A stretch of DNA of 64,000 nt, from positions 6,868,692 through 6,932,691 of the forward strand of contig NC_089322.1 of NCBI RefSeq assembly GCF_036669915.1, read 5' to 3'. The notes beneath the pieces were generated by a model. It saw only the letters and a program-made list of their open reading frames with translations. It did no database searches and was not told where the DNA came from. Below are positions 23,766-55,400 of the stretch, piece after piece (positions within the stretch are counted from its first letter, which is position 1; every line of letters begins with the position of its first letter). The position numbers were made by a program, and so were the translations under genes. This DNA is from Pocillopora verrucosa (lineage: Eukaryota > Cnidaria > Anthozoa > Scleractinia > Pocilloporidae).

Positions 23766-24027
23766 GCACCCATAATCTTGTTCATAGCTCTTCCTTATCA
23801 TTGTTCAATAAAAATTTGCATATTAGTTAACAGAATGTGCTTTTATTAGGATAACACATACCCTTCATGAAACTTTTATCTATTTTTTCACTGGTTGGGG
23901 CTCATTTGTAATTAAAGGCGAAAATTTCTTGAAAATAGCATTCGGAAGTGAAAGAGTTGGATCTGCAGGTGAACCCATTTTATTTACATGCAATAGTAAG
24001 CCAATATTGGGGTTAAAATTCTGAAAT

Positions 24028-35900: not shown

Positions 35901-38900
35901 TAATAGCTGCTACACTGAACAACCATGAATATAATTAAGAGCTGCCTCTTTTTCTGACAATCACCACAATAGCATCAGCAGTTGATCATGTACATGTACT
36001 CTGATCATCCAGGTAAGAGATGTCCCAAGAAGCGCTTTTGTCTGTACAAATGACTGACATTTTAATAGTCTCAACTCTGAGGTCAAACCACTTGCTCTTG
36101 AGGGACACAGAGATTATATCATGGAGAGTGTGCACAAACAATTTTCATTCACAAGTTGCCATGCATAAAAAAAAAAAGAATGAGTGAGTGCAGCAAAAGA
36201 AGAGAGGTTTTTTAATGCCACTCGATGAGAGAATAAAAACTGTTCAAGCACTTTCCGATTTACACTGTGAAGTACAAAGCTAGAAATGTGAAAATAATCG
36301 CCCTTCCAATCAGAGACAAATGATAGTACTTCACACTGTAAATCTCAGTACATAAATGGCACACAATAAACAAAATCTAGCATGACCAACTAGTAGTTCT
36401 TATTTATCCAGATAGTTTATTTAGTTACTTTACAATTATTATATTATCTGTTATGACTGCTGTAACCTTTCCTCTCCGCCTGCCTCGTCTAGCTTTTGCT
36501 ATTTGCGGGTGGAGATGGCAAAATGATTTGCATGAAATAAAGTATAGTGTGTGTTTGGTGTGTTTGGAATACTAAAATAACAGACTGAGTTATTTTTAAT
36601 TTTCTGAATATCAAGTAGAACAAGCAGACCTTGTAAATACCTGTGTGACATCAAGAGATAAATGTTGTGATCCATTTAAAATAACAGTCTGGCCTGTTAG
36701 ACTTTCCAAGTTAAACTAAAAATAGAAATTAAAAGTAAGTCAGGACACTAAAGTGCTTCTCATTGCCTGGTTGATGATTTGTTCTCTATCTGATTTGCCA
36801 ATTTGCTTATTTAATTAGAACATGAACATGAGAGCAATCTTAGCAGTAATGAACACTTCTGAAGCAGCAGTAAAAATAAGGTCTGGAAAAGAATTCAGGG
36901 CTATGCAAGAGTTGAACCCATGACCTCTGTGAAACTGGTGCAATGCCTTACCAACTGAGCTAATATACCAACTGGGAGCTGGTCATTTTGTTAGTTTGAA
37001 ATAATGAATTAGGTTGGGTCATTAAGTTACCTGTGATGACGAAGAAAATATGAATTTCATATATGAGAACTGCAGGTTAAGATTTGAAGATTAAATAGTG
37101 TTCATTATTGCAAAGATCTCTCTCCTCTCCATTTATTAATCCACAGTTCACATGTATGATATTATATATTCACAGTCATTATTACAACAGTCTTAGATCA
37201 AATAATCTGGAGTTTCTTAAGTTTTGCTTGATTTCACTTTGTGACTGGTCCAGATAACTTGTCCTACTTCCTCAACCAATCAAATTATACTCTTAAACCA
37301 AGTGCAACTTGTATTGGTTAAGTGTGTTTTCCTATACTAAAGGCAATTGGCCTGTTTTCACCCTCAGTTCTCATAGGTTCCTTGTGATATATTTCTTTGT
37401 TTTTATTTGCTATTGGCTCTTGGTTATTGGCTTTTTATGACACTCAATTGGAGCATATTTTGGGATAGAAAACTAAGTTGGATACTTTAATTAAGGGGAT
37501 AAGTTTCTGAGAAACTGTAGTGTTGCGTCAGTGGGAGAGTTTAACAAGGTAATTTGGTATCATCAACTAAATTGGCCACTGTTAAGAGTTTCAAAGCTGA
37601 CGTTACAAGTGTTAGCACTTCATCAGAGCAAATGGAATTGGACACTTACATCATAGGGTACTTTCATTAGCCAAAGGGAAGAGTTATCACGATCAGTTAC
37701 AACATCTTCCAGCAATGGACAGTTGTTGGTGTCATCTAGATTCACAGCTTCAAAGCCAACAGGACACCGAGATCTACAGGTGGGAAATGATGGGGATTAT
37801 TAAAACTTTTTCCGAAATATAGAGAAAATAAGCTGAAATAATAAAATCAATATTTCTGCACTAAAATAGATTGGGCCAGTAAGCCACAGCTCACCAACTA
37901 CAAGCCAAGCTTGGTTCTGTTGAATAACATCACCAAACTTGAATATGATTGGACAACTCAGTACAAAAATTCAACCAATTTGTGCCAATGGCTCAGGGGT
38001 AGGAGGGGACAGGAGGAAGGAGGAGGATGACAAGGAAGATAAGAGAGGGAAGAAAGGGGTGGTGGTAAGATGTTGGAAGGAGGGAGAAGGGGGAAGGACT
38101 GAGAAGGAAGGAAAGGAGGGGGAAGGAGGGGGAAGGAGGGGAAAGGAGGGGAAAGGAGGGGAAGGAGGGGGAAGGACAGAAAATGAGGGCAAGGGGCAGG
38201 GAGGGGAAGGAATGGGAACAAGGGGAAGGAGGGGGATGACAAGAAAGAAAGAGGGAAGGAAGAAGGGGGGTAGGGAGGAGTTGGAAGGAGGGGGAAGGAG
38301 GGGAAAGAGGAGAAAGAACAGAGTTGGGGGAAGGGAGCAGGGAAGGGAAGGTAAGGAGAGGAAATGAGGGGAAGGAGGAGGAGGGAGGGGGAAGGACATG
38401 GAAGGAAGGGGATGGAGGGGAAAGGATGGAAAATGAGGGGGAAGGACAGGGAATTATGAAGAAGGACAGGGAATTACAAAGGACAGGGAAAGACAGGAAA
38501 GGAGGGGAAAGGGGGCAGGGAGGAGAAGGAGAGGGAACAGGGGGAAGGAGAGAGAGGGAAGGAGAAGGATAGAGAAGGAGGGGGAAAGAGAAAAAGGTGG
38601 AGGGGGAGGAAGTGGAAGTAGGGGGGGGGGAAGGGGCAGTAAGTAAGTTAATAAAAAATCCCAGGCAAGGCCAGTGAGGCCTACCTTGTTTGTATGCATG
38701 CTTCAAGGAGTAAAAAATAAAGCAGTAGGTAACATTAAAATGTACAGAAAAGATCCTCCATTCTATAAACTATACCAGTCATGATACAGCCATAAATTTC
38801 CTCTATAGCAATCACAATCATCATATTCGTTATTTAAGTAGTAAACATTATCAACGAATTGATCCAAAATGATGCAGAGGTAATGAACAAACAAACTGAC

Positions 38901-39102
38901 TGCCGGATTACATGCATATCGCACTCAATTTACGCCAGAATTCTGGGATAAGCGGGTTTACCCCCGATCTCAATGATTGTTGTACTTCCATGAACTCGGT
39001 AAACTCTATACATCTACAGCTGAACAAAAACATCGTATCCAACAGCTAACTATCATTATGAAATTATTAGGCTTGCCTCAAGTCTTTCTTAGATGACGGC
39101 AT
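32986..39102 (-). CDS. POLR1G: RNA polymerase I subunit RPA34
   Basis: Seven coding exons on the minus strand: 39077-39102, 37650-37773, 36641-36715, 34990-35043, 34816-34870, 34092-34190 and 32986-33653. Together they are 1101 nt, or 366 aa, and phases agree at every junction. The product is the RPA34/POLR1G (CD3EAP) subunit, which with its partner RPA49 forms a TFIIF-like module of nucleolar RNA polymerase I for rRNA transcription. The N-terminal half matches the family: FEAVNLDD..., LWLMKVPYD (compare LWLIQAPADF in the human protein), LTGQTVILNGSQ, GKKRYEM, and SFTVLLPSS before a GTFSGQMSVIQSV block. The last exon is a long, very Lys-rich tail (many KKKRK runs), also typical. Exon 1 encodes only MPSSKKDL plus part of a codon and uses a GC donor (GAG|GCAAGC). 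That start is the least certain part. It shares its upstream region with THNSL1. Confidence 0.85.
34588..34799. repeat. Short MITE with TTAACC termini in POLR1G intron
   Basis: Imperfect terminal inverted repeats: 'ttaacctgttcacccctaa' on the left and 'ttagagtgcaaaaggttaa' on the right. Length is 212 bp and there is no coding capacity. The pattern is familiar from coral genomes. It lies in the intron between exons 5 and 6. Confidence 0.65.
35143..35354. repeat. Foldback repeat in POLR1G intron 3
   Basis: Starts 'ttcactcccgagatctcatt' and ends near 'catgggaattaaaggattaa'. The same element occurs in opposite orientation at 63458-63661, sharing 'actgtctgcca' and 'aaggagaaattc'-type strings. Confidence 0.65.
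35577..35766. repeat. Long inverted repeat (foldback hairpin)
   Basis: The left arm from 'caattggttcatatgtctgt' through 'catcaagatatgaagcacgc' and 'ggaagtttggagagcac' is mirrored by the right arm 'gtgctctccaaacttccca', 'gtgcttcatatcttgatga' and 'gtatgaaccaattgt'. Arms of about 80 bp surround a short centre. It lies in POLR1G intron 3. Confidence 0.75.
36250..36346. repeat. Small inverted repeat in POLR1G intron
   Basis: 'gatttacactgtgaagtac' near 36256 pairs, with one mismatch, to 'gtacttcacactgtaaatc' near 36327. It lies in the intron between exons 3 and 4. Confidence 0.6.
36845..36985 (-). repeat. tRNA-derived SINE, copy 2
   Basis: The reverse complement shows the same order as copy 1 at 20158: 'gaccagctcccagttgg', A box 'ttagctcagttgg', 'cacagaggtcatggg' and B box 'gggttcaactc'. 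It is more diverged from a tRNA than copy 1. It sits in POLR1G intron 2. Confidence 0.75.
37497..37640. repeat. Palindromic MITE-like repeat, copy D half
   Basis: Left half only: 'gaaactgtagtgttgcgtca', then 'atcaactaaattggccactg' and 'agctgacgttacaagtgtta'. It ends within ten bases of POLR1G exon 2 (37650), so the repeat abuts that exon's donor site. Confidence 0.7.
37994..38635 (+). repeat. Purine-rich minisatellite (GGAAGGAGGGG-like)
   Basis: About 640 bp of almost pure purine on the plus strand, built from variants of GGAAGGAGGGG and AGGGGAAGG. Such tracts can form triplex or G-quadruplex DNA. It lies in POLR1G intron 1, where the transcript is C/U-rich. Open frames across it on both strands (Pro/Ser-rich or Gly/Glu/Lys-rich) come from composition and are not genes. 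Confidence 0.9.
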
Positions 39103-39470
39103 TCTACTTTTCTTGATCCCGATGAGACAAAGATTTCGCGAACATCAGCTTTAGCACCCAGGATAAGAGCATCATAAACGATTTTCAAAGTTTCAGCAGA
39201 CTTTGTCTTTAACCCGATCGAAGGTTCGAAGCCATGTGCAAATCATTGCGACCGCTAACAACCAGCGGCACGAAACCAAGCTGTTATGTTTGTAATTTGC
39301 ATGAAATATACCCCTGAATTCCAGACTACTCTCGACTGATTATATAACCTCTCCACGTGGCCACACGATGTGAGCTGTTACGTTCGCGTGACTCTTGAGT
39401 GACTTGATTTTCACTTTTTCGATGCGTTATAGCAAGATTTAACTCTAAGATTTTATTCCCCATCAGCAAA
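39103..39470. promoter_or_regulatory. Bidirectional promoter region POLR1G/THNSL1
   Basis: The two start codons are 368 bp apart, head to head. A CACGTG box lies at 39354-39359 and a TATA-like 'tatataacc' at about 39341-39349. Transcription start sites cannot be placed from sequence alone. Confidence 0.6.
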
Positions 39471-42400
39471 ATGTTCCACAGAATGAAGTGCCGAGCGAAC
39501 GATTTTTGTCTTCGACGAATGGGTTTACATAGACTACTTGAACGCGCTCTTTCTTCAAATGGTTGTTTTACAAGCAGGAATCGAGAAAATCACTCAATGT
39601 GCTGCTTCGAAAAGAATAGATGGAAATATCTTGTAAATTTACAGAAAAGATCCCTGCAAGACGGAAGGACAAAGGTAAAAAAAATCGCTCAATACTTTGT
39701 CCATGACTCTCTCTTTGTTTATGTTTTTTTTTCCTGTTTAACGGAGGGGGGAGGCAGGGGGCAGGGGGAGTAGGGCTGGGAGGCTGGTGTTTTCTTAATT
39801 AGTGAGGCTGGAGGGGATGGATGGATGAAGTAGTATTCTACTGTATCTTAACTAAGGTTTTTTCATCCAGAAAAGCTAAACGTCTGGATATAAGATAAAG
39901 TAGAATAGTAATTAGTTTGGATGTTTTGGTTGTTGTTGTATCGGATCATATGTACTGTAGGTTGCCTCGGTCGACATGTGGGCCGATACATCGGCCGATA
40001 TATCGGTCGACTGTCAAGGTACTTGTCGACCGACTGTCGGTCGACAGTCAACCGACTATCGGTTGATAGTCGACCGATATTTGACCGATACTTAACCGAT
40101 ACTTGACCGATGCTTGACCGATACTTGACCGATACTTGGCCGATACTTGACCGATACTTGGCCGATACTTGGCCGAAACTTGGCCGATACTTGGCCGATA
40201 CTTGACCGATACTTCACTGGCAGTTAATCGCTACATATCGGCCGATGCATCGGCCGTCAGTCGGTCGATATATCGGTCGACTATCGGTCGACTATCAGTC
40301 GACTATCGACCGACTATCGACCGACTAACGGTCGATAGTCGACTGTCGGCCGATATGTCGACCGAGGCCACCTAGAGTACACATGATCCGTTGTATCAAG
40401 GATGTTGCTTTAGCAGTAAAAAACTATTGTACTGGGCTTATCAGACTTCACCAGAACTCTTCTATTGGATAATCAACATATAGATTCCATGTTGTGGTAC
40501 ACCAGTTCAATAGCAGATCCCATATGATGTCAAAATGTGGTAAGAACAAAAAAGTGGCATACAAAAGAGTGTGTCACTGAGTGTTACCACTTTTTGACAT
40601 CTGTTGTGATCTGTTCTTGAACAAATGCACTGCAACATGATGATATCATCTGTGCATCAGTCCTCCAATAGATCTTGAGTACCAAACAAATTGTTTGTAT
40701 AATCCAGCTTACCCAATACAAATTAACACTGCATACAACTCAGCACCAGCATCTTGGCACTTAGCAAAAGTGAAGCCTGTCCTTTCTCAGTGTCATGCCT
40801 CACATAGTAATTTCCTGTCATCTTATACTTTCCTCCTAACTGCCCTCAGGATATGTTAGACTGACTTGATGCTTCTAATAAACAACCATTTTCAATTTTC
40901 ACTGTTACTTCACAAGGGTGACAATATTATTCTTATGGGAAGTCCTGGTGCAGGAAAAACTTCTGTTGGAAGAATCCTTGGGAGACATTTGCAGAGGGAA
41001 GTTCTTGATATTGATGATGATGTCTTGGAGAAGGTGTGGGGAATGACAGTTGCAGAAAAGGTAAATTATATCTTGCAGCTGTGAAGAATATCCACCACAG
41101 AAATAAATTAAATAACATTTGAACTTGGAGCACTGTAGGGCCATGTTTTGTTGTTGGTATTCACAAGTATAAAAGCATAAAACAAATTGTCATTTTCTCG
41201 AAAAGTATGCTTGTTCTTGGGTGTAAATTGAATTTTAAACTTTTTTGACATCTAGTTGTCTCAAGTGGGCTCTGATGGTTTTGTTGAAGCAGAGGGGCAA
41301 GCATTGTTGCAGTTCTTTCCCAACAATGCTGTTGTGTCTTTGAGTGGGTCCAATCCAATGCATGCAACAGCCATGGATCACACCAGATCACTTGGGACTG
41401 TTGTGTACTTAGATGTGGCAGATGAAGAGATATTGAATCGTCTGGCTGCTATGAAAGTAAACAGGATTGTTGGACAGAATGAAGGTAACAGATGAATTCA
41501 ATTCGGGGGTAGTGTGTAATTTAGTGTTAAATTCTTGGAGTGAAAGTTATAATGGATGTGTGGTAGACAGTGTAGAGAATTGATGCTTTGATCACAGGGT
41601 GGGTGGGTTGACTGAAATGTTTATCAGGTCAATAGTGGCAAGTTCTTTTAAATAACTGTTATATAAAGATTTTAGAAAAGAAATCAGATGTAAATTTTTG
41701 GGACTGGTCATTATTTGCTGCCAGAGGAGAGGGGAAGGGCAGGGGGGGAGGGGGGGAAGGGAGGTTTGGAGGATTTTGATTTTGTCACAACAAAATTTAC
41801 CTGATGCCCCAGAAGAAAGGGCTCTGTCATATTATTACACACCCTCCCTCCCCCCTTCCTCTTTCATGGTCCTTCCATTATACTCTGTTAGCGACAACTG
41901 ATTCCCCTTCATTCCCCCTGAAAGCTATGTGATCCCAACTACCCTCCCCTCCCTGTAGGCAATAAATAACAACTGTTCTCAAATATTTGTGTTTTATGAT
42001 GTCCAATCTTTGTCTTTTTAGGTATTAGTATGAATGAAATTCTTCAGTATCGTAAACAGTTTTACGAATCTAGCTATGACGTTCGTGTCATCTGTGCCAA
42101 TGGAGACTCCATCGAAGAAATTGCCAGCAAAGTTCGGACAAGTTTGGCAGAGTTAAGCATCGATCAGGGATTTACAAGCACAAGACAGGAACACTCTGAC
42201 ACTGGTGACAGTCCAGGATTTTTACGAGTGGTGTTAGAAGGACTGGCGCCCGACGGAGGACTATACGTACCCAAGAAAAAGATACCACACTTTACTGAAG
42301 GTGAGATCATTCAGTAATTTTTAATTGAAAGTTAGGCAGCATTCCTTAAGTTTGTTTTACATCGCCGTTTGATTTGTCAACAAAACTCGCGCTATCCTTA

Positions 42401-45400
42401 CAACTAATCAGATTCAAAACTGAAAAGTCAGTCCCAACTTGGTCACCCACGTTTTCCCGCGCTTCAAGGAATTCGATCGTTTGATCGACAGTCAATCGAA
42501 AAATGCTTAATACTTATAATAATACTAAGAGAGAAAGTGAACACTATCCCATTATTATGTCGACGATCAATCGTATCAAGACGAAAAGTCAATTATTTCT
42601 CGATTTCTTTCCGCTTTATAGGTCAATGGGAAAGGCTTGTAGACTGTAGCTACCAAGACAGAGCTTTGCGAATTCTAGAAACATGGATTTCACCAAGCGA
42701 ACTTCATCCGTCAAGTTTGCGCCAAATGGTTTACAAGGCTTACTCCAGTAATTTCCAACACGAAGGAGTTGCCCCAGTTGTCAAACTTAACGAGCAGTTC
42801 TATCTACAAGAACTATTCCATGGACCTACCGCCTCTTTTAAGGACATGGCTTTGCAGTTGACACCGCAGTTTTTTAGCGAAGCTATCTCTCGAACGTGTT
42901 CCTCTGATGAGGATCTTAAACGTCTCATTCTCGTTGCCACATCAGGAGACACGGGTAGCGCGGTGCTGGAGGGTTTTAAAGAGAACTTTGATACTGATGT
43001 CCTCATTCTCTACCCAGAGGAAGGTGTCAGTTCGATCCAAAAGGCGCTGATGGTTTCGTCTGATGGTCAAAATATGCGCGTGATCGGAGTGAAAAGCGAC
43101 TTCGACTTCTGCCAAACTGCAATTAAGACAATCTTTAACAATATGTCGTTTAGCAAGAAACTAGCAGAGTCGTATGGTGTACAACTGAGTGCGGCGAACT
43201 CTATAAACTGGGGAAGATTATTACCACAAGTTGTTTATCATGCCTCGGCATATTTGGATCTTGTTCAATCTGGAGTTATCTCCATGGGCGAGGAGGCAGA
43301 TTTGTGTGTACCAACAGGAAACTTTGGCAATATTCTGGCTGCCTACTATGCAAAGGTTAGTAAATAAGAAGCACACTTCAGAAACCACACAACAATTATC
43401 TTTGCCATTGAATAGGAAAATGAAAATGATGATTTGAACTGTTTTGTGAGATTAGAAAGAGGAAAGTCTCCTAGAATTCAAGGCATAAATGTTTCTCTTT
43501 ATTGTGTGCAGGAAATGGGAATACCTCTCAATAATCTGATCTGCGCTTCCAACGAAAATAACATTCTTACAGACTTCTTTCACTCTGGTTCTTACGACAT
43601 GAGTAAACGAAGGATTCAACAGACCCTTTCTCCATCTATCGACATTCTCAAGTCGTCCAACTTGGAAAGATTACTTTATCATGTTACTGGACGAGAAGTG
43701 TCTGGGTTGATGAAGTCGTTGGATGAAAATAAGCATTTTCAGGTATGTGACTAGAGTAAATTCATCATAACGATCATTTTTTTTTAGTATTTCCGAGGAG
43801 AGTCATCATGGACATTTCCAATCAAAGGATTGGGAGGGGTTTATGCAATGTAGAAACCAATCCCCCTCCTAGCCCTAGTCCGCGCGGCTATCCATATAAG
43901 TTTGACTTTCGCGTGGATCATGTCTGTTTTATACAACATCTGTAGCAGCTTGCATAAGGTCACAACCTGATGCCGTGTCTCGGACAAAAACCAATAAATA
44001 GAGAATAATACATGGGCGCGCGTAGATATGGAATTTCTCTTCTAGTTTTTTTAACACGATAGCTCACGAGTGAGTGCAGCGATCGAGCTTTTAAAAAATC
44101 GACTGAAATTGTCAAAACGTGATATTAAGAATGTTAAGTTTGAGAAAGGAAGCTCTTAAATTTACAACAAAATCTCTGATTATTATTATTGGTATTGATT
44201 GTTTATATGATATGTATATATATATTTAATAAATAGATACTTATTTATATTATAATAAGTAATTTGATTTTACATTAATTTATACTTATAGTGGGTCCAC
44301 ATCAGCTTGTATGTTGCGTATTCCTGACCTGCTTTGCTAAATAAAGTTATGTATATATGTATGTATGTGAGTGTAGCGAACGAGTGAGATGTCGAGTTGA
44401 CACGAGAAGAGAAACTCTTCATCTAAAAGAAAGCATGTATTCTTTTGTTTATTATCTAAACACAATAATAGCCCTTAGCTGACGAGAAAAATCGGTAAAA
44501 GGATCGACAGTCTCCGAATAAAAACAGTGGAGAGCGTTAGCATTAAGACTCAAGATGAAAAAAGGCGTTGAATCGCTATAAAAACAACAACGTATGGGAG
44601 TAATTTTCAATAAACAAAATTTCCATTTATTTATTTTTTTCCTTACCGACAAAAGAATTCCTTAAGGTACACGACAAAAATCGACTTGTGGCAAATCTTC
44701 CGTTTGTCGATTTTCTTTCTCAGCCGCGAGAAATGCCATCACCAAAGCCACTAATTACATAACTTTCGGTTTTTCTTTCATATTTCGGTCTTCTTTCCCT
44801 TCAAGGGAAGTGTGAATGTCAATGTCTGTAAGCGATACGGATTTTTCAGTGTTTTAGCAGCCATAATCGGAGAAAATTTCGACATACAACGATGGATAAG
44901 AATGGTGAAGGTTTTGCCGTTCATTCATTAACTAGACCAAGTGGCACGAAAGGCGAGTGACGTGTCAGCAGCTGATTGGCGATATCAAACACACATGAAA
45001 AAATATCGTATTTTAAAACGTGTGTTGTCACGGCCTTTCTCAGGGCTGGAAATCCTTGTATAAAGCCTTTCCATTTCTCTCAGTTTGTTAATATTTTGTA
45101 CTAGATAGTTATGTAATCGATACACTTTACTTGCAGGCTTTTCAGCACGTGTCACATTGGTCTTTAAAAGCGTTTTCCCCCATGTGCATGTGCTAAAAAG
45201 CGTCTTCAATGTCGATTCGTAACCGTCTTTATGAGTTGTGTAACCATCGCTGGCACGTGCATCTACACATGCTCGTTTTGCTTTATAAAAGCTTGTTTTT
45301 CTATTACACGTACACTTGAGTCTTTGCCATCGCTAGATCAGAAACAGCAGCTACTTTAAGATGTCCAAATTTCTGCCAAAATTGTTCAAATCAAGCGATC

Positions 45401-47616
45401 GTAAGAACTGGAGGAGAGACATGTTGATTATTCCTCGCCCAAACGAAGTGACCATTTCGACAGAATTCACCCGTGGTCTTGGCAGGCGACTTCCTTGCTA
45501 CGACCTAAGCGAAAATGTCATCATTTTCAAAGCTGAAGGAAAATCAATCACTGCTGGAACAAGTAGCTCAGATGAAGGTAGTCTTCAGCTCAAAGAGAAG
45601 TCAGAACGCGGTTTGATGACGCCCGTGGACAAAAACCCTCCAGCTGAGAGGAAGGAAACACTGATGGAATTAAGAAAGAGACGTCCTTCAGGGTTTAAAG
45701 AATTCGAAATTGCTCTTGGATCGCAGGACTTAGAGGAAGAGGTTGCCTTACAGCTGTGGGAGGATATTTTCAAACCGTTGCGAAGCAGTTTTCAAGGAGG
45801 AAAAGATTGCTTTGAATAGATGTTAAGGTAATGTGACGTTTTGTTCAGCAGCCGAACAGTTTACTCAGAATTTTCGCCGAAAAATTATTTTTAACCTCTA
45901 GAGAGTATCATATGTTGATTCAAGATTTTCAGCGATTATAAAATTGAAAAAATAAAAGGAAAAAGAAGGCGTTTCTTTTCTATGACGTTACTGTAATTCG
46001 GTGTAAACATGATCAGCCGCATTGTACGTATGACGTCACTTCTCGTTACCCTGGAGACTAATTTTTGCCACATTTTACGAAAACAGACCTTATGTCCTCT
46101 TCATTGAACTTCCCTTGACGCTTTTGAACTCCACACGATGACTGATACAAATATTTATATTTTAAAAAAATTTGTTTCAAAATTTCGATAAGATAACGAA
46201 TAGCGTTATTTGATGTAGTATTGCAAGTTATGTATTGACACAAATTGCCATGTTAGCAGAATTAGTATTGTGAATAGGAAATGGAAATAAAAATAAAATA
46301 CTATGTGAATGAATGAATAAGTAAAGCGAAGATCTTGGGAAGCCAACAGCTACCGTAAAAGATCTGAAAACGAACTAAAACGCCAAGTTTACTTTCAGAA
46401 CTACTTCAGTTCATTCTATCTTCCCCAACCTCACCTTCCCTCCATTGTTTGTTTGGTTGCTCGTCAAGGTATATATTATTGCCAGGGAACGTGAAACATC
46501 GAATTGTAATGAGAGCAAATCAAAATGTTAAATATATATTAGTATAATTGCTCCGATGATTGAGGATGCGCACGCTCTAACTGGTCAAGCACCGTGTCAT
46601 ATCTTGCTGTATTCACCTCGTGCGAGATGATTTCAAAATGGCTGCCCTGCATTTGGTCGATGTTTCCGAGGAAGTGATAAATGCGATAGATGAAAATTCA
46701 AATTGGGAAGAGCACGAAAGATGCTACTGAGCTTGGCGGAACACTTTTCAAAAGAAAGATGTGAAGTTTTAGCTTATTGAATGAAATAAACCTCTGCGAA
46801 CCTAAAATCAGGAAATGGTCGTCAGAGATAAAATTTTGAGTCACATCAATAACTTTTGTTGCTCTTTTAAGTTAAATGGAATGTCTGAAGACTAAATAAT
46901 CCGACCACCAATTTTTTATAAAGGAGGGCGGCGGAGTATTATAATAAATCTGTTTGCACATATTTCTTCCACTTTAACTTTGGACCTTTATTCCGCTTAG
47001 CAATTCAAACGTTCGAGCCTGCTACGTGACCGCTGACCGCCGAACACAAACCGCCTGATTAACGACTCAAATGTAAACTGAGTTGCCAAAATATTTTCTT
47101 CCTGCTCGCAATCACCAAAACGGTGGCAGCTTGCAGCACAAGTTTTGTTGCATGGAAACCTTTGTTCTTAAGATCTTTGATATTCTTCGTTTCTTTCAGA
47201 TTTCTGGTGATCTTTGGAGCCACTTGTCAACTGTATTTAAAGCGGATTGGACTACAGAAAAGAGGTGTCTGGATGTGATAAAATCGACCTATGAAGAAAG
47301 TAACTACATCTTTGATCCTCACACAGCAGTGGCTAAAGACGTAGCGGATCGCTTTGCAAATCCTCATCGACCCCTTATCATCTCTTCAACTGCCCACTAT
47401 AGCAAGTTTGCGTACGATGTTCTAAAAGGACTGTCAAAATTACCAGCATCCCAAGGTCCTTTGGACTTGTTTGGGAGTCTAAACAAACTTGGTGCCAACC
47501 CTTCTGCGCATGCCAATCTTGAAACTGTTGTCAAGCGAGATCAAAAGCAGAATACCACGTGCTTAGCGGAAACTAGTGTAATCATTAAGGAAATAGAAGC
47601 CTTTTTAAGTCGATGA
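39471..47616 (+). CDS. THNSL1: Threonine synthase-like 1, seven exons
   Basis: Coding exons: 39471-39674, 40917-41060, 41256-41484, 42022-42300, 42622-43355, 43512-43742 and 47200-47616. Together they give 745 aa, matching the length I recall for vertebrate THNSL1 (about 743). All junctions are GT-AG and keep frame. Exon 1 is a basic, Arg-rich leader consistent with mitochondrial import. Residues from about 69 form a shikimate-kinase-like domain with a P-loop GSPGAGKT (76-83) and DIDDD. From about 260 follows a threonine-synthase-like, PLP-dependent domain. Its PLP lysine is in PTASFKD (Lys359), and a phosphate-binding ATSGDTGS lies at about 391-399. Animals do not make threonine, and the substrate of this paralog is not established. 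Intron 6 (43743-47199) holds a LINE fragment and a nested gene. Confidence 0.93.
39730..39800 (+). repeat. G-rich tract in THNSL1 intron 1
   Basis: Several runs of four or more G (for example 'ggaggggggaggcagggggc') begin about 60 bp after the exon 1 donor. G-quadruplex potential is visible; function is unknown. Confidence 0.6.
39943..40389. mobile_element. 447-bp TIR element with internal satellite
   Basis: The ends are inverted: left GGATCATATGTACT... and right, reversed, GGATCATGTGTACT..., with similarity continuing through 'cctcggtcgacat'. An identical 8-bp direct repeat GTTGTATC flanks it at 39935-39942 and 40390-40397, a clean target-site duplication. Inside are nested palindromes of CCGATA/TCGGTCGAC type and 13 consecutive 11-bp units of (G/A)(A/G)CCGATACTT at 40072-40214. 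It has no transposase, so it is non-autonomous. An 8-bp duplication fits hAT, P or Merlin-like elements; GG termini favour Merlin, as inference. It is in THNSL1 intron 1. Confidence 0.88.
40072..40214 (+). repeat. Tandem array, 13 x 11 bp
   Basis: Thirteen contiguous units, most reading GACCGATACTT or GGCCGATACTT, with single-base variants in a few. It lies at the centre of the TIR element at 39943-40389. Confidence 0.9.
44088..44366 (+). mobile_element. LINE 3' tail with 18-bp target duplication
   Basis: 279 bp matching the 3' end of the LINE at 24502-25077 in opposite genomic orientation, including 'ctgctttgctaaataaagtt' and the TATG tail. It is flanked by an 18-bp duplication with two mismatches: 44070-44087 (GTGAGTGCAGCGATCGAG) and 44367-44384 (GTGAGTGTAGCGAACGAG). 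It is a 5'-truncated insertion in THNSL1 intron 6. Confidence 0.85.
45146..45290 (+). promoter_or_regulatory. Promoter of nested gene: E-boxes and TATA
   Basis: CACGTG boxes at 45146-45151 and 45254-45259, and a TATA box TATAAAA at 45284-45290, about 71 bp before the ATG at 45361. The spacing is that of an ordinary RNA polymerase II core promoter with a short 5' UTR. Confidence 0.7.
45361..45819 (+). CDS. DIFKPL-family small protein, copy 1 (nested)
   Basis: Intronless 152-aa protein of unknown function, wholly inside THNSL1 intron 6 on the same strand, with its own TATA box. It has the family's basic N-terminus (MSKFLPKLFKSSDRK) and a variable, Ser/Glu-rich middle. The conserved C-terminal block spans about residues 98-139 (ETLMELRKRRPSGFKEFE, then LEEEVALQLWEDIFKPL). 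It diverges after KPL: the YTFDFL segment shared by the three downstream copies is replaced by RSSFQGGKDCFE. No signal peptide or membrane helix is visible, so it is probably intracellular. The W-E-D-I inside an acidic context resembles an LC3-interacting motif (inference). I do not recognise the family. Confidence 0.85.
   Translation: MSKFLPKLFKSSDRKNWRRDMLIIPRPNEVTISTEFTRGLGRRLPCYDLSENVIIFKAEGKSITAGTSSSDEGSLQLKEKSERGLMTPVDKNPPAERKETLMELRKRRPSGFKEFEIALGSQDLEEEVALQLWEDIFKPLRSSFQGGKDCFE
46637..46760 (+). pseudogene. Relic of Crypton-like/DUF3504-type ORF N-terminus
   Basis: An ATG-led stretch reads MAALHLVDVSEEVINAIDEN, then, after a one-base shift, STKDATELGGTLFKRK before a stop. This resembles the N-terminal 'NSTKxATKxGVxLFK' pattern of a recombinase-like protein family repeated in coral genomes. 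A second relic with the same order lies at 63052-63193. Both are non-functional remnants; the family name is tentative. Confidence 0.5.
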
Positions 47617-48500
47617 TTGTGGACGGGGATTTTAGCGACTGATAACTCGAACCTTCAAGGGAAATCGAAAAATGTTGGAGGCCTTGCGAGTTGAAAACAA
47701 AGGACCGAAAACAAGGGAAAACGGTGTTTGCTGTTTTTCTATTCGTGCAATATACTTTTTAATCAAATTTAATTCTAGAGAAGTCGAGTGAAAATGGAAC
47801 ATTAAATTACTGCAGAAATCGTGACACAACGTAAATGTTTTGGACTGCAGTAAACTGTTTTTTTCTGATTTGTCACCTGTTGCCACAATAAATGATCCGA
47901 AGGAAAATAAAAATTGCTTCGAGTTAGCGGGAGGTTCGAGATACGAAGGGTGAAATTGCACGTAAAGCTGGGGATAACCGATTTTCACTCAGCTTCGCCT
48001 CGTGAGTCCACATCATTTTGACCACGTGATGACGTGATGACGTGTCGATAAGAGTACAAACTACGCTAAACGTCATGACTTCAAACAAATATTTTCTCTC
48101 CTAGCGGCTAATATATCGTGGACGTCATTTTGTTTCGTCACGTCACGCGTAAGATTGAGAAATAATCTTCCAAAACGTGTTCAGGCTTTCTACGAAGTGC
48201 GCAGGAACTGAAAATGAAATCGAGTCCGGCGTACGTATGAACCCGTTACTGGTAAATTATACTCATTCCATTCCACTCAAAACAAGTAATTGGCTAATCT
48301 AGTACCCAGCCTAGTGATTGGCTGTCAAACAAATATTTTCGATGGCATATCATCAACTGTACGATTTTTCGTTAGCACTTACGGAGGTGAAAATGGCAGG
48401 CTACTAACCAGCCTTCATCGGCGGTGCATCAACCTCGTTCTCAGGGTCCTCTCGCTTCTTCACTCGAGAGGGAAGATTGAAGTTGACCATGCGTCTCACT
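47617..48500. other. THNSL1 3' flank / upstream of copy 2
   Basis: Contains THNSL1 3' UTR and repeated 'gatgacgtg' strings near 48026-48045, including another CACGTG at about 48023. No separate gene is supported. The open frame at 48290-48514 has no family features. Confidence 0.4.
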
Positions 48501-48507
48501 TAAGAGT

Positions 48508-48554
48508 CACGTGATGCTATTCGCGTCAGATCACGTGCGCAAGCATTATAAATA
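48508..48554 (+). promoter_or_regulatory. Promoter of copy 2: two E-boxes and TATA
   Basis: CACGTG at 48508-48513 (in GTCACGTGAT context) and 48532-48537, followed by TATAAATA at 48547-48554, 83 bp before the ATG. Confidence 0.7.
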
Positions 48555-48636
48555 GTTCAAGCAACACGATTCATTGCATTTGTTTTCCACAAATTCTGGC
48601 CTTCTCGACTCCAAGCGGAAGACAACATCGGGCTAA

Positions 48637-49050
48637 ATGATGTCTCTTTTCCTCAAAAAGATTACCAAATCAAATGACCGTACCAAGCAGCCGAGCACGG
48701 GAGAAAAATTGAAATCCAACCAACCGTCAAGCTATTTACGCCGACAGAGCTTCACCATGGTCAGAAAGAGAGTGAGGTTTTCATCCGATGGTGAAGAACA
48801 AGAACACAAGATGAGTGATGTGGGACGGGTGCTAACCGAAAAAGTGCATCAGGGAAACTGCCAAATCCAGAAAAAGATGACATTGGCAGATCTAAAGCAG
48901 AAAAATCCTCCCGGGTTTAAAAAATTTCAGGAGACAGTTGATTCCCAAATGCTGAATGAAGAAGTGGCTTTAATGTTATGGGAAGATATTTTCAAGCCTT
49001 TGTACACGTTTGATTTGCTGCAAACGGACCCTAAATTCTTAGAGATGTAA
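48637..49050 (+). CDS. DIFKPL-family small protein, copy 2
   Basis: Intronless, 137 aa, from ATG 48637 (a second in-frame ATG follows at once) to TAA. The N-terminus is MMSLFLKKITKSNDR, with the same hydrophobic-then-basic pattern as its paralogs. The middle is rich in Arg/Ser (RKRVRFSS) and differs between copies. The C-terminal block is KMTLADLKQKNPPGFKKF, then LNEEVALMLWEDIFKPLYTFDLL, ending FLEM. It is the most diverged copy in the middle but keeps every core C-terminal residue. No signal peptide, transmembrane segment or known domain is visible. It lies 1.0 kb downstream of the THNSL1 stop, on the same strand. Confidence 0.85.
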   Translation: MMSLFLKKITKSNDRTKQPSTGEKLKSNQPSSYLRRQSFTMVRKRVRFSSDGEEQEHKMSDVGRVLTEKVHQGNCQIQKKMTLADLKQKNPPGFKKFQETVDSQMLNEEVALMLWEDIFKPLYTFDLLQTDPKFLEM

Positions 49051-50700
49051 TTATGTAAGTTGAAAACTCGATATTAGGCAAGTATATTTAGTGTGGTTAA
49101 AATGGTTTGCTTTCGTGCAAAAATTTAAAGAAATATAAAGACGTGTACTATGAAATTAACACATAATTAAGCAAATAACTCGTTAATGGATAACCGCACT
49201 AATTAAGGACTAATCATTTGGGAGGGTGAGTTTCAGAGTTTGGAAAAATTTTTAATTCATTGTTATTTCTTCAGCTTGTTTTTCAATATCATTCATAGTC
49301 TTGTTAGCCAAACAACATTGTTCTTGTATTCAAATTCAGAAATCTAAGGCTGACGTCTTTGTCTGTCAGTAAGTCTGCAAACAATTCATTCCAAACATAA
49401 ATATTTTTCGAACTTGGATGAGTTTGTCTCAGTAAATCGATTTTTTCCAACCGTACGTAGATGCATGTCCCCGTTAAAATTGCGCTTTCTGCGAAGGTTT
49501 GACCGGAATTTCGACCTATCAGGCAGAAAAGAGGTGCGAAATTCAGTCCATTGATTATCTGAGTGTTAATCATACCTTTCTTACGGAAACCTTTCTTTAG
49601 CGTGGTTATCTGGTAATGGCGTTAATCTCTCAACCATCCCTGACGTCTTGGTCCTTCATTAATTAAGTATCTGTACGCAACTCATTCACTCCATACATAA
49701 ATATTTTTTCGAATTGGCGGACGGTTGTCTCGGTAACTCTATTTGTACATATTGGTTTCGTTATTACCATTACAACAACCACGTAATAATACCAACGAAT
49801 ACTCTCGAAAACCGGCGACTTAAATGGCGTGAACCGCAACCTGCAAAACGTGATCATTATAGTCAAAATCGATTCAAACCCGTGACCAAGCAATGCCTAC
49901 AAAAATTTTCTCTTCCAATACACGTGCATTTTTCAACTTTAGGTGGTAATCATTAGTATCCCTAGTAATATATTGTGCCGATCTTTTAGGGTTCTTCCAT
50001 TTTAAATTAAGGATATCTGAAATAGCTTTCCCCTTGATAAAAGCACGTATTCCAAATCAGTCGTGCAATTTAGCCAAATTTGATTTGAAGATTTGAAGTG
50101 TTCCTTTTAAATACGGGACGCATTAAATACTATTTTAACAAAAACTTGACGAATGAATTTTTTCTTAGATTCGTGCGTACAACAGGATCAGGACCCCGCG
50201 GAAAAATGAAAATAATAGTGCCGACGGAAATATGACCTATTTGTGAGAAACGAAAAAAAAAAAAAAAAAAACATTCGCGTTCGTCTCTTACTGTTCATGA
50301 TACCGTTAAGATCCTTTCATGGGACCACGTTTATCAAGAGATCCTTGCGCCTTGATTGTTCCGAGGTCTAAATGGGTTGCTCCGTGGTCTAAGTTCATGT
50401 TTGTTGTCCAGTGGTGGTTCTTAGCCTCATGACAATTTTTTTTCAATACATTGTTTTTTTGCAACATTTTGTGATAAAGTTTTGAATACATCAGATTTTC
50501 AAATAACAAAACATTCCTTATGACAGTACGGTATTCTCGAGAACGATAAGTACAAAACAAAACATGAGATAAGGATTGTCCTGCATGGGTCAGTTCTCAT
50601 CATATCTCGGTGTGCATTCGCTTTTCGTTTCAAGGAACTCGAGAGAGCAGAAAAGGAATAAAGAAATAAATTTAATTAGTAAAAATAAACCAATTAAAAG
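49051..50700. other. Spacer between copy 2 and ghost copy
   Basis: Contains two related segments of about 100 bp (around 49360-49445 and 49660-49750, sharing 'attcattcc'/'attcactcc', 'aacataaatattttt' and 'gtctcggtaa'-like strings), a small local duplication. A 20-base A run lies at about 50251-50270. No gene. Confidence 0.4.
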
Positions 50701-51115
50701 GAACGAAAATACAAAAAGACCAAAACATTCAGACTGCTGGTAATCTAGTGGTTCCGTGATCGGGATATTTTTCATCGGTCTAAAATCGTGATTGGCTAGA
50801 AGAGCTTGCAATTTGATGGTTTCATTTTTTCAGTGCCCCAATAAAAAGTCTTCGTGGTCACGTTTTCTTGACTTTGCATTTCATTTGCGGAAAGTTCGTT
50901 GGAAAACGTCATTTCATAAACACGTGATAAAATTATCTCAGGATACATGGGCATTTGCAATCATTTTCGCGCTGAACGTTCGGGAACAAACAAAAACCTA
51001 ACGTACGATGTCTAGTATTTATTATTTTTAATAAATACCTAAGATAAGCGATGGATATAGGGATAAATACTTTTGTATTTTTCAGTTCCTGATGTTGTTG
51101 CCTAGATTTTTGTTT
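50701..51115 (+). pseudogene. Ghost copy: promoter fused to 3' UTR, no CDS
   Basis: Bases 50701-51013 match 51497-51810 (upstream region of copy 3) almost throughout, including the CACGTG box (50921-50926), a perfect heat-shock element (50973-50987) and the ATG TCT of the start (51008-51013). The sequence then jumps directly to copy 3's 3' UTR: 51016-51115 matches 52369-52465 ('attatttttaataaata', 'gagcgatggatatag' with changes). The whole coding region has been deleted between the second codon and the 3' UTR. Confidence 0.88.
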
Positions 51116-51149
51116 TGAATGTCTATTTCTTTTAATCAAATATTTTCTG

Positions 51150-51290
51150 ATGTAGGTTATTTGCCCTGGTTGTTATTTGCCCTGGCAGAGGGCTAACGCT
51201 CAAAACGTCAACATTAAAAATTCTTCAAGGTAGACAAATTGCACTCTTAACTCAGTGGATAAAACCAAATTATCTTGATTCTTTAATGAG
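51150..51290. repeat. Palindromic MITE-like repeat, copy E
   Basis: Right-arm copy with 'gagggctaacgctcaaaacg', 'ggataaaaccaaattatctt'. It shares 'ttatttgccctggca' and the downstream 'gattctttaa' with copy F, so the two were duplicated together with neighbouring gene sequence. Confidence 0.7.
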
Positions 51291-51299
51291 GTAATGATC

Positions 51300-51480
51300 T
51301 ATAGAGCACGAAATGCAGGAAGGGTGTGCCTTCCTCGCCATGTCAGAGACAGACAAATTTTACAAACATTTCATGTGCAGATGTCATTAAGATTTGCAAG
51401 CACACGTTGTCATATCAATGGCGGAAACGTTCTTAGAATCTGCTGCAAAACATTATAAAGGCACTATGTGCGTGAGCTTC
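51300..51480 (+). pseudogene. Second ghost: detached copy-4-type promoter
   Basis: About 180 bp matching 54081-54256, the region just upstream of copy 4. It includes 'gaagggtgtgccttcctcgc' (one of the two), 'catgtcagagacag', 'cattaagatttgcaag', and a TATA-like 'ttataaagg' near 51453. The first codons and coding sequence of a copy-4-like gene are missing; sequence like copy 3's upstream region begins at 51497. Confidence 0.75.
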
Positions 51481-51717
51481 TGAACGAAGGAAAAGGAAAG
51501 AAAATACAAAAATAACCAAAACAGTTAGACTGCTGGTAATCTAGTGGTTCTGTGATCGGGATATTTTTCGCCGGTCTAAAATCGTGATTGGCTAAAAGAG
51601 CTTGCAATTTGATGGTTTTATTTTTTCAGTGCACCAATAAAAAGTCTTCGTGGTCACGTTTTTCTTGACGTTGTATTTCATTTGCGGAAAGTTCGTTGGA
51701 AAAAGTCATTTATTATA

Positions 51718-51784
51718 CACGTGATAAAATTACCTCTAGATACATGGGCATTTGCAATCATTTTCGCACTGAACGTTCGGGAAC
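51718..51784 (+). promoter_or_regulatory. Copy 3 promoter: E-box and heat-shock element
   Basis: CACGTG at 51718-51723. At 51770-51784 the string tGAAcgTTCggGAAc is three perfect alternating nGAAn units, the binding pattern of heat-shock factor. It lies 20-35 bp before the ATG at 51805. Another GAA/TTC pair is in 'ggaaagttcg' near 51687. No clear TATA box is visible. Confidence 0.65.
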
Positions 51785-51804
51785 AAACAAGAACCTAACG
51801 TACG

Positions 51805-52248
51805 ATGTCTCGTCTTCTCAGAAAGTTATTCAAATCAAAAAATAAAGAGAATATGACTGGCGGGATGCGCACCATTGCTTCTGACCAAGAATTTCTCGGA
51901 CCCTCACAAAAGCGGAATGGTTTCAACAAGCAGTCCTCTGTCCACAAGACCAATGGCCGTTTTATCGTCGTTGAAGAAGGCGGAAATTCATACCTGGTTG
52001 AAAAAGAAGAATGTCAAGAAGATAGAGACTTAAGGACAAATTGGAAACGCAGTGGAGATGACAGTCAAGCCGTGCTGACATTGGAAGATTTAAAGAGAAG
52101 ACGTCCACCTGGGTTCCAAAAGTTCGAGGCCTCCCTAGCTTCGCTCGACCTGGATGAAGAAATCGCGCTGGAGTTGTGGGAAGACATTTTTAAACCTTTG
52201 TATACCTTTGATTTTCTCAAAATTGATTCTGGACACTTAGAAATGTAA
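51805..52248 (+). CDS. DIFKPL-family small protein, copy 3
   Basis: Intronless, 147 aa. The N-terminus is MSRLLRKLFKSKNKEN; the middle has FIVVEEGGNSYLVEKEE, a segment shared only with copy 4. The C-terminal block runs from about residue 103 (DLKRRRPPGFQKFE, then LDEEIALELWEDIFKPL) and ends YTFDFLKIDSGHLEM, identical to copy 4 over the last 20 or so residues. The acidic helix-like stretch before LWEDIF and the basic N-terminus are the constant features of the family. The function is unknown; a soluble adaptor or regulator is only a guess. An AATAAA lies in the 3' flank at about 52378. The promoter has a heat-shock element. Confidence 0.87.
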   Translation: MSRLLRKLFKSKNKENMTGGMRTIASDQEFLGPSQKRNGFNKQSSVHKTNGRFIVVEEGGNSYLVEKEECQEDRDLRTNWKRSGDDSQAVLTLEDLKRRRPPGFQKFEASLASLDLDEEIALELWEDIFKPLYTFDFLKIDSGHLEM

Positions 52249-53539
52249 TAGTTGCCTTAGAAAATTGTGCGGTTTACTGGGCTACAAAATAGTTAACCGA
52301 GTTTCTATGTTTTTCTTGCAATGGTTCTGCCAGGGGAAGTATAAAAAAAACAAAAAGGAACCAAAACAATTATTTTTAATAAATATCTAAGATGAGCGAT
52401 GGATATAGAGGTAAATACTTTTGTGTTTTTCTGTTCCTGATGTTGTTGTCTAGATTTTTGTTTTGCTGTGTATAAAAATTTTCTGATTGAGTGCAACAAA
52501 CACCGTTCTCTGCCTTGAAGTCGAAGTCATTCTATTTGTGGAAAGATAAGCTTTATATCCTTTTTATCTGCTCCGAATCGTTTCCATTATATCGGCATAA
52601 GATGATTAAGTAAACTCGATGACCAAATTATGCATCGAGGGACCACGTTTGCTAATATTTTTTGACAGAAAACGCAAGATCTTTACAAAGGATTAGCAAA
52701 CAAACAATCCTCCCAGAGACAATTAAAGTAATTTGTAATTAATTTTTATTCACAACTGATCTTTATAGCAGTTCAAGGCGAATTGAGGTTAACTTACGTC
52801 GATTAATCGTTGATAGAAAAGCAAGAAAGGCAAAGACTTGTTTACTTTGGCTAATTCGGTGACAAAGATGCAACCAGATTTATGAGCGCAGAAAAACTGT
52901 AACTATAGTCCGTATAGCAAAAGGACAGGAAGGCCTACGGGGGCGTAACTTGCCAACTAAATTAACAACTTTACTGCTGTGAAATTAAATTCTTTTTATC
53001 CTTTTGACTCAAGTAGTTTTTTTAAGTTTAATGTTCTGTGTTATATTTGGTCGATCTTTAGAAAGAAACAATTTTGATCTGGTACGTGCTTGCCATAACT
53101 TCGATACAGGTGGCTGCTAGCATAATTGGCAATTGAAGAGACTTGTCACACACCAAGAACCTAGAGGAAATGGAGTGGCGCACCCTTTTGTTTGGCTCGA
53201 AAACGTATGTTCATGGAAAAATTTCTTTTCCAAAATTCTGTCCGAAAATGTTAACCGTAACTCCCTGAGGTTAATATATCACAGTTTAAATCAATTTGTT
53301 TTGATCACTTAATTTCGTTTCCTTCTTTTTGGTTTTTTGTTGTTGTTGTTTGGTTTTATTTTGTTTCTGTGATTTTGTTGTTTTTTCAATAAGCTTGCAT
53401 TAGGTGAAAGAAATTTGTAAAATTATTAAGGTTGGTCGAATATATCCAACTCACGACAAAATCTTAATTCAGTTAAGAAAAATAATGGTGTAAAGTCAGG
53501 AAAACATCAGGATAACAATTGATTCTATAATAAATAAAG
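52249..53539. other. Spacer between copies 3 and 4
   Basis: 3' UTR of copy 3 to about 52470, then AT-rich DNA with a T/G-rich run near 53330-53380. No gene recognised. Confidence 0.35.
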
Positions 53540-53830
53540 AGGGTTATTGGAAACTGTGATGTTGCGTTGGTGGGGGGAGGGGGAAGGACGGGAGGGGGAG
53601 GGAGGGGAGGGAGTATTGCAAGATAATTAGCTTATTAGCTGAGTTGATAATGTGAACTGGCCTCCGTAAAGATTCTTTAAAGCTGGCGTTTCGAGTGTTA
53701 GCCCTTTTTTATTTGCCCTGGCAAAAAGCTGACGCTCAAAACGTCAAATTTCAAAATTCTTCAAGGTGGCCAATTTACATTACCAACTCGGTTGATCAAA
53801 CCAAATTGTCTTGATTCTTTAACGAGGTAA
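53540..53830. repeat. Palindromic MITE-like repeat, copy F
   Basis: Nearly complete. The left end 'gaaactgtgatgttgcgttg' is followed by a G-rich insert (53566-53612, several GGGGG runs, G-quadruplex potential). Next come 'ctgagttgataatgtgaact' and both palindrome arms, ending 'accaaattgtcttgattctt'. Confidence 0.75.
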
Positions 53831-54147
53831 TGATATATGGGTAAACTTGAAAATTATGTTTTCGATTACAGTTACAATGTTCTAATCACTGTTTTGACAC
53901 ACTGACCGGAAATCTTAACTTCCGCTTGGTTTGCCAAAACGTCATTCACACCTATCATGTCCCAGAAAAGGCTCATCCTTAGAACCGCTGTCATTTGAAT
54001 ACCAAATGTGCATGATTATCTCATAATTACATATTTTTTGTTTCTCGAGAAATAGCGAAAACTTTGAACGAGAAGGAATTGGCACGAAATGCAAGAAGGG
54101 TGTGCCTTCCTCGCCATGTCAGAGACAGCCAAATCTTACAAACATTT

Positions 54148-54153
54148 CACGTG
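54148..54153 (+). promoter_or_regulatory. CACGTG E-box upstream of copy 4
   Basis: CACGTG 147 bp before the ATG at 54300. In the ghost promoter at 51300-51480 the corresponding site reads CATGTG, so it is altered there. A weak TATA-like 'catatagg' lies near 54230. Confidence 0.55.
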
Positions 54154-54299
54154 CATATGTCATTAAGATTTGCAAGTACACGTTGTCATATCCATGGCGG
54201 AAATGTCTTTAGAATCTGCCGCAAAACATCATATAGGCGCTATGTGTGTGAGCTTCTGTATCAGTTTCACTCAGACCAGACGGGGAAACAAAGTAAACT

Positions 54300-54710
54300 A
54301 TGGCTCGTCTATATCGAAAGCTGCTCAAGTCAAAACATGACAAGAAAATAACCGGAGGTCTGTTTGACACTCCTTCTGAAGAGAAATTGTTTGGATCCTC
54401 AAAACATTGGAATGACCACAACGTCAACAGTTGCTTCTTGATCGTGAAGGAAAGTGGAAATTCGTATGTCGTTGGAAAAGATCAGTTCGAGAAGAAAACA
54501 GATCAAGGCCACAATGGAGAAAGAGGAGAAACCGAGTTAACTTTGAAAGATTTAAAGAAAGCACGTCCACCTGGATTCCGGAAATTCGAGACCTCGCTTG
54601 GTTCCGTTAAACTAGATGAAGAACTTGCGCTGCAGTTGTGGGAAGATATTTTCAAACCTTTGTACACCTTCGATTTTCTCAAAATTGATTCGGGACACCT
54701 AGAAATGTAG
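54300..54710 (+). CDS. DIFKPL-family small protein, copy 4
   Basis: Intronless, 136 aa, ATG 54300 to TAG. The N-terminus is MARLYRKLLKSKHDKK. The middle contains FLIVKESGNSYVVGKDQ, parallel to copy 3. The C-terminal block is LTLKDLKKARPPGFRKFE, then LDEELALQLWEDIFKPL, ending YTFDFLKIDSGHLEM as in copy 3. Copies 3 and 4 are therefore the youngest pair by C-terminus, although their promoters differ. There are no membrane segments. An AATAAA at 54832-54837, about 120 bp past the stop, is a plausible polyadenylation signal. Conservation of the C-terminal block against a diverging middle argues for a real protein under selection (inference). Confidence 0.87.
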   Translation: MARLYRKLLKSKHDKKITGGLFDTPSEEKLFGSSKHWNDHNVNSCFLIVKESGNSYVVGKDQFEKKTDQGHNGERGETELTLKDLKKARPPGFRKFETSLGSVKLDEELALQLWEDIFKPLYTFDFLKIDSGHLEM

Positions 54711-54965: not shown

Positions 54966-55078
54966 TAAACTCGACACATTCGCTCTGACGAAAGGTTAAC
55001 GAGCTCGAAACGTCAGCTTATGAAACTCTTTTCGGCGGCAAATATACAGTAACAACTCAGTAGATAAAACCAAATTAT
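54966..55078. repeat. Palindromic MITE-like repeat, copy G half
   Basis: Right half only: 'cattcgctctgacgaaaggt', 'gagctcgaaacgtcagctta' and 'gtagataaaaccaaattata'. Confidence 0.7.
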
Positions 55079-55249: not shown

Positions 55250-55400
55250 TGCCATTCTCTCTGACAGAGGGCTAACGCTCGAAACGTTAGCTTTAGAATA
55301 TATTTACGGTGGCCAATCTGCATTATAAACTCATTTGATGAAACCAAATTATCCTGTTATTCTCCCCCACCAATGTAGAACCGCAGTTTCTTTAAAAAAT
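55250..55400. repeat. Palindromic MITE-like repeat, copy H half
   Basis: Right half with the outer end preserved: 'gagggctaacgctcgaaacg', then 'ggtggccaatctgcattata', then 'tctcccccaccaatgtagaa' and 'ccgcagtttctttaaa'. The outer end is the reverse complement of the left ends at copies D and F, showing that the intact element is one long palindrome. Confidence 0.75.

Follow-up and report, generated by a model that had tools for sequence, protein, structure and literature searches.

A dispersed family of small proteins in the coral Pocillopora verrucosa, with a tandem clade marked by a candidate change of N-terminal anchor and by CACGTG-rich promoters

In a 64,000-nt stretch of the Pocillopora verrucosa genome (contig NC_089322.1, positions 6,868,692 to 6,932,691; G000:C11:6868692-6932691 under the labels C1, C3, C10, C11 and C13 that we use for contigs of its own 353,415,432-base assembly), hereafter the window, four short plus-strand open frames, c1 to c4, lie in tandem and end in a common C-terminal block. 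They belong to an 11-copy, dispersed family with one tandem clade. The explanation that we favour, tentatively and as quite possible, is a family of membrane-tethered adaptors, each with an N-terminal anchor, a disordered tether and a helical partner-binding block, in which the array clade would have swapped its anchor and come to be driven by a basic helix-loop-helix (bHLH) factor.

The four array genes are real and of shared descent, their likeness not being due to chance: mutual tblastn matches range from E 1e-14 to 4e-45, and 28 of the 164 columns of their alignment are invariant, LWEDIFKPL among them. Coordinates, alignment and tblastn agree with an earlier sequence-only reading of the window, which had described four plus-strand frames sharing this block; its report of YTFDFL in three copies was exact for c3 and c4, but c2 reads YTFDLL, and c1 diverges past FKPL. 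Judged from their open frames, c1 to c4 are probably single-exon genes, and we infer that family members are transcribed. The array had been taken for a four-gene tandem family, which proved too narrow: the c3 protein found 11 matches in its own genome (E 9e-95 to 5.5e-6), namely the four array copies and seven scattered ones (Table 1). An L008 query returned the same 11 copies together with three weakly matching pieces, of which two contain stops, and an L010 query returned the 11 with one of these pieces. A branch with support 83/87 sets the array clade apart in the unrooted tree of the block, and block column 29 is Trp in all seven scattered copies and Ser in all four array copies.

Some smaller features of the family are recorded here. 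Decayed-looking pieces (stops in two of three) lie beside intact copies, as at G000:C10:13879685-13880049 and C13:4912465-4912569. By eye, L007 (L007:1459-2085, minus strand) has two similar stretches of ~45 residues before the block, ending KCHSFKQKES and KRHSLKQKEA, and L009 has a related KRHSFGGKEE stretch. RVxF-type PP1-docking motifs occur in two of the 11 members, c2 (KRVRF) and L010 (RSVQF, by eye; L010:1288-1674).

The C-terminal block is under purifying selection. Across its 41 codons in c1 to c4, the proportion of synonymous differences (pS) was 0.43-0.94 and that of nonsynonymous differences (pN) 0.13-0.25, with pN below pS in all six pairs; across a 33-codon stretch of the block in all 11 copies, L013 included, each of the 55 pairs had pN below pS, synonymous sites being near saturation (median pS 0.76-0.84). 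For the middle region of c1 to c4, pN was close to pS in four of six pairs and lower in the other two (0.54 vs. 0.79 for c1-c2, 0.35 vs. 0.64 for c3-c4). The regional contrast that had been proposed, a held C-terminus and a diverging middle, is thus borne out for the block and for the faster pace of the middle, though in those two pairs the middle too keeps pN below pS. Thirteen block positions are invariant or nearly so across the 11 copies, and conservation around W-E-D-[IV] takes in L-x-L ahead and F-K-P-L behind, ~40 residues overall. The structure prediction of the block alone that had been suggested, run with AlphaFold2 (AF2), gave three helices (residues 7-13, 18-27 and 32-54) at a mean predicted local distance difference test score (pLDDT) of 75.7. 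The full-length model has a short helix at residues 3-10, pLDDT below 50 over residues 16-88 and helices in the C-terminal block; two short strands in its low-confidence middle are untrustworthy. Both models, each built on four sequences, place the conserved Trp within a predicted helix that is 20 or 23 residues long. The block presumably binds a partner.

The N-termini differ between the two sets of copies. Gly2 is found in seven of seven scattered copies and none of the four array copies, while Lys7 is kept in all 11 (7/7 and 4/4). Six of the scattered copies have a small residue (Ser, Thr or Ala) at position 6, their positions 3-5 are variable, and in all seven the stop-to-stop frame has no Met ahead of the MG; in control DNA, GGN followed ATG in just 194 of 6458 random cases. 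A PROSITE-type N-myristoylation context calls for a residue 3 that is neither charged nor bulky and a small residue 6. The strict form of this pattern matched five of the seven scattered copies and a relaxed form (any residue 3, Lys7 required) matched six; the scattered copies appear to carry an N-myristoylation-type signal. Each array N-terminus contains four bulky hydrophobic residues among its first 12, with a helical moment of 0.43-0.70, matched in 0.3-8.7% of cases by shuffling the first 11 residues. In six of the seven MG copies there are one or two such residues and the moment is 0.17-0.54; L007 has four and 0.25. That Gly2 came first and the amphipathic helix later is suggested by the dispersal of the scattered copies and by the retention of Lys7 in every member, a direction that stays unproven because the tree is unrooted.

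Upstream of the array genes, the promoter signals reported earlier for three of four copies reduce to two by the consensus TATAWAW, which precedes c1 and c2 and is absent, as an exact match, from the 400 nt before c3 and before c4. All four have a CACGTG E-box within 160 nt of the start, as do none of the seven scattered copies. Of the 47 CANNTG sites within the array stretch used for counting (44900-54299, limits of our choosing), 10 are CACGTG. The remainder of the window has 5 among 239, and a genome control has 16 among 794 (array vs. control, Fisher p 3.1e-7). That control comprised 20 stretches, each of 10 kb, drawn from five contigs and including 15.7 kb that read N; no single stretch exceeded three. 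When hexamers were ranked against the rest of the window, CACGTG came second of 2080, ranks 1 and 3 overlapping it. About 600 nt before c2, CCACGTGATGACGTGATGACGTG at 48023-48044 holds an E-box and, after it, two TGACGTG elements, a combination that could also suit ATF6/XBP1-type factors.

According to the explanation that we favour, the Gly2 signal and the lysines would hold the scattered proteins on a membrane, and in the array clade a short basic amphipathic helix would have taken the place of the Gly2 anchor; it is from these N-termini that we infer membrane binding for the family. A long, disordered and freely changing tether would connect the anchor to the C-terminal helical block (~45 residues), which would grip one conserved partner via the face formed by L-x-L-W-E-D-[IV]-F-K-P-L. 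The array genes may additionally be under bHLH control. CACGTG is bound by several bHLH factors, of CLOCK:CYCLE, USF, MITF/TFE and MAX type, and CLOCK is therefore one candidate among several.

A number of observations weigh against this explanation. The strict myristoylation pattern stops at five copies because of Ile6 in L007 and Lys3 in L009, and since the scattered copies share descent, their seven Gly2 residues are not independent events. Helical moments overlap (0.43 for c2 vs. 0.45 for L009 and 0.54 for L010), the moment of c2 being the one matched by 8.7% of shuffles of its first 11 residues, and the N-terminal helix is predicted at low AF2 confidence. In the tree, which has no root, the array branch has only moderate support and the branch leading to c1 is long. 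Three of the ten array CACGTG sites lie away from starts, at 47556 (in a threonine-synthase-like exon), 48023 and 49921; the c4 site sits in a duplicated segment (block D, below), and c3 and a coding-less fifth unit share one site via duplication. L011 has CACGTG at -206 and -269, so the E-boxes are not wholly array-specific. Finally, the motif and the array limits were first chosen by eye, the later hexamer ranking being motif-unbiased.

The N-termini could be read in another way, as nuclear-localisation or nucleic-acid-contact regions of a nuclear or cytosolic regulator, with MG arising from a good start context and common descent. They are indeed Lys-rich, with runs of RKRR (c1), RKR (c2) and KRRR (c3), and G following ATG is common in strong start contexts; but Gly requires GGN and not merely a G at +4, the scattered copies keep Gly2 and Lys7 in 7/7 and a small residue 6 in 6/7 among variable positions 3-5, and the array N-termini are amphipathic, c2 least so. 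We consider this regulator unlikely. An intracellular protein, as the sequence-only reading had it, agrees with the array proteins, in which no signal peptide was seen by eye. That reading also guessed that WEDI is an LC3-interacting region (LIR), which would make the protein a selective-autophagy adaptor bridging membranes and ATG8. The core W/F/Y-x-x-L/I/V with acidic context does occur in 10 of 11 copies, as W-E-[DG]-[IV] with acidic residues within and before it. The guess is nonetheless disfavoured on two grounds: both four-sequence models put the Trp in a predicted helix, LIR cores being expected in extended or disordered stretches, and the ~40 conserved residues far exceed what a short linear motif needs; L013, moreover, breaks the core. 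This role strikes us as very improbable.

A diverged version of a known fold or motif was also considered, since by eye GF..F and the hydrophobic spacing resemble an RGS box, the GF loop and D-x-E-x-A-L resemble helix 3 of a UBA domain (a UBA/CUE-like ubiquitin binder), and paired hydrophobics resemble the helices of A-kinase-anchoring proteins (AKAPs). Against yardstick alignments of only three and four sequences, hhalign gave E 0.59-0.78 for the RGS box and 0.4 for UBA, with no Pfam match to either listed, and the R-subunit-binding consensus of A-kinase-anchoring helices was found in none of the 11 members. A Pfam scan of the 11 members reached E 0.11 at best, with no accepted match, and a 27-residue N-terminal piece gave E 0.03, under the cut-off; for the four array members nothing was better than E 0.061 in NCBIfam or 0.037 in PHROGs. 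No relative held up in PDB sequence profile searches, and a Foldseek search with the block model gave no PDB chain up to an E-value of 10. A fragment of an RGS box, a UBA/CUE-like binder or an A-kinase-anchoring helix is on these values a doubtful identification that we think quite improbable. The earlier finding of no named domain holds; a dN/dS near 1 in the block, which like such a domain would have told against the sequence-only reading, was likewise not found. The family appears undescribed in the sense of having no match in Pfam, NCBIfam, PHROGs or PDB. The density of E-boxes, for its part, might be a by-product of local duplication or sequence, the array genes having no common bHLH control. 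The site that c3 and the coding-less unit share by duplication and the three sites not near starts would fit this, and such counts can mislead, since half-sites of the cAMP response element also looked enriched, yet one control stretch has 28 vs. 17 in the array. With the duplicate removed, however, the share is still 9 of 46 vs. 5 of 239 (p 4e-5), the flanks of c1 and c2 give no mutual blastn match at 1e-6, and more than three CACGTG sites occur in 0 of the 20 control stretches; we regard a by-product as somewhat unlikely.

Within the favoured explanation, a more specific proposal, to which we give very little credence, is that the array is a clock-driven module: CLOCK:CYCLE at the promoter E-boxes would yield the anchor-swapped adaptor at set daily times, as a daily output or feedback element peculiar to Period-less animals, and the amphipathic versions would compete with the myristoylated ones for the same partner. 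For Nematostella, CACGTG is described as the CLOCK:CYCLE site, and its enrichment among E-boxes in the 5 kb upstream is reported solely in candidate pacemaker genes, at 15.9% against 6.8% in non-rhythmic ones (PMC11093582). Period is reported absent from that species (PMC2943474). A diel study of it describes 143 annotated cycling genes and 37 unannotated ones, 22 of the latter having Acropora homologues (PMC4476465).

Table 1. Positions of family members, their blocks, promoter elements and duplicated flanks (window coordinates unless a contig is given)
Feature	Location	Strand	Remarks
c1	45361..45819	+	single open frame, 152 aa
c2	48637..49050	+	137 aa; has KRVRF (PP1-type RVxF motif)
c3	51805..52248	+	147 aa
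c4	54300..54710	+	136 aa
c1 C-terminal block (TL..FKPL, 41 codons)	45658..45780	+	alignment, pN/pS
c2 C-terminal block	48880..49002	+	alignment, tblastn, pN/pS
c3 C-terminal block	52078..52200	+	alignment, tblastn, pN/pS; three helices in block-only model
c4 C-terminal block	54540..54662	+	alignment, tblastn, pN/pS
c3 putative basic amphipathic N-terminal stretch (MSRLLRKLFKSK)	51805..51840	+	like N-termini in c1, c2, c4
TATAAAA	45284..45290	+	77 nt before c1 start
TATAAAT	48547..48553	+	90 nt before c2 start
CACGTG	45146..45151	.	215 nt before c1 start
CACGTG	45254..45259	.	107 nt before c1 start
CACGTG	48508..48513	.	129 nt before c2 start
CACGTG	48532..48537	.	105 nt before c2 start
CACGTG	51718..51723	.	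87 nt before c3 start
CACGTG	54148..54153	.	152 nt before c4 start, within block D
Coding-less fifth unit, 5' flank	50688..51019	+	91.6% identity to c3 5' flank; E-box 50921, ATGTCTAGT 51008
Coding-less unit, 3' flank	51021..51117	+	92.8% identity to 52369-52465 downstream of c3
Block D, 177 nt, upstream of c3	51306..51482	+	blastn
Block D, second copy, just upstream of c4	54082..54258	+	91.5% identity
L007	contig C1		scattered copy
L008 + L009	contig C13		16 kb between them
L010	contig C3		scattered copy
L011 + L012	contig C10		opposite strands, 2.3 kb between them
L013	contig C1		shortened; one TAG within match to c3

The array is set in and among other sequences. A Pfam match to shikimate kinase at 40860-41084 passes its cut-off. 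PALP with Thr_synth_N at 42408-43367 and THR4_C at 47077-47616 fall short of theirs but lie in order; c1 reads as intronic, lying within a threonine-synthase-like gene that shares its strand. In the coding-less fifth unit, between c2 and c3, the flanks are joined directly and the coding region between them is absent. A search of the 353-Mb genome found only the two copies of block D. These are 91.5% alike, yet the synonymous divergence (dS) between the coding regions of c3 and c4 is ~1; the flanking cassettes were therefore either copied anew or preserved as the coding sequences diverged. A dispersed repeat with GCTAACGCTCGAAACGTC-like sequence occurs in both orientations (51160-51302, 53698-53838, 54977-55078, 55253-55352, 9213-9417 and 23643-23754).

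Elsewhere in the window, six long frames resembling class-A G-protein-coupled receptors (GPCRs) were seen by eye in 1-31000 (231-1211 minus, 6968-7879, 12180-13142, 16302-17264, 22730-23638 and 29353-30315 minus), with fragments near 3825-4803 and 24025-24595; the one frame tested matched 7tm_1 at 4e-25. Purine-rich simple sequence at 37924-38800 has long, spurious-looking frames on both strands (GC skew 0.378 in 38001-40000), and repetitive sequence at 39863-40375 encodes SIGQVSAKYRP-like units in several frames. In the wider genome, the GFP family gave 74 matches, those listed all on C1, with two large clusters of pieces at 0.67-0.88 Mb and 28.36-28.79 Mb of that contig. Among the best 60 of 309 PDB sequence matches to one such piece, amFP486, which comes from the sea anemone Anemonia majano, was closest (1.5e-35; other GFP-like proteins 5e-27 or weaker). 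From these matches the animal would very probably be placed among the hexacorallian anthozoans.

If the membrane-tethered adaptor explanation is true, one clade will have swapped a Gly2-type lipid anchor for an amphipathic helix with its partner-binding block retained, and the evolution of anchor and promoter would be linked within one tandem array. The array would also be a candidate E-box-driven gene set in an animal group whose clock is reported to lack Period in Nematostella, the one species cited (PMC2943474). The conserved block, with near-invariant positions despite near-saturated synonymous sites, would offer a ready pull-down target.

Several known systems bear comparison. Small membrane AKAPs (AKAP7 alpha, smAKAP) are short, with a lipidated N-terminus and a single C-terminal helical docking element, and the present family would resemble them in layout but departs from them in the AKAP consensus (0 of 11). 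All four array genes have CACGTG near the start, as do cnidarian clock genes regulated through CLOCK:CYCLE E-boxes; unlike clock genes, they encode proteins for which Pfam gave no match to bHLH, PAS, cryptochrome or bZIP. The Bearded (Brd) proteins of insects are small. They are described as products of clustered genes, comparatively fast-evolving, predicted to have an N-terminal helix that is basic and amphipathic, and containing conserved domains that can be recognised (PMC1310631), and the array is like them, as so described, in its clustered genes, fast-changing proteins and putative basic amphipathic N-terminus. Unlike the proteins of the E(spl) and Brd complexes, the 11 members have no N-x-A-N-E Neuralized-binding motif, their C-terminal block is different, and the Su(H) consensus, a Bearded feature, is absent from the 1000 nt before any of c1 to c4; Bearded would be the nearest analogue in layout, and not a demonstrated relative. 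Arf and Sar1 have a GTPase domain that is absent from this family, and only their anchor logic is comparable: as described, Arf1 is N-myristoylated on Gly2, Sar1 is not, and both have an N-terminal amphipathic helix (PMC4140167), a precedent for myristoylated and unmodified amphipathic anchoring in related proteins.

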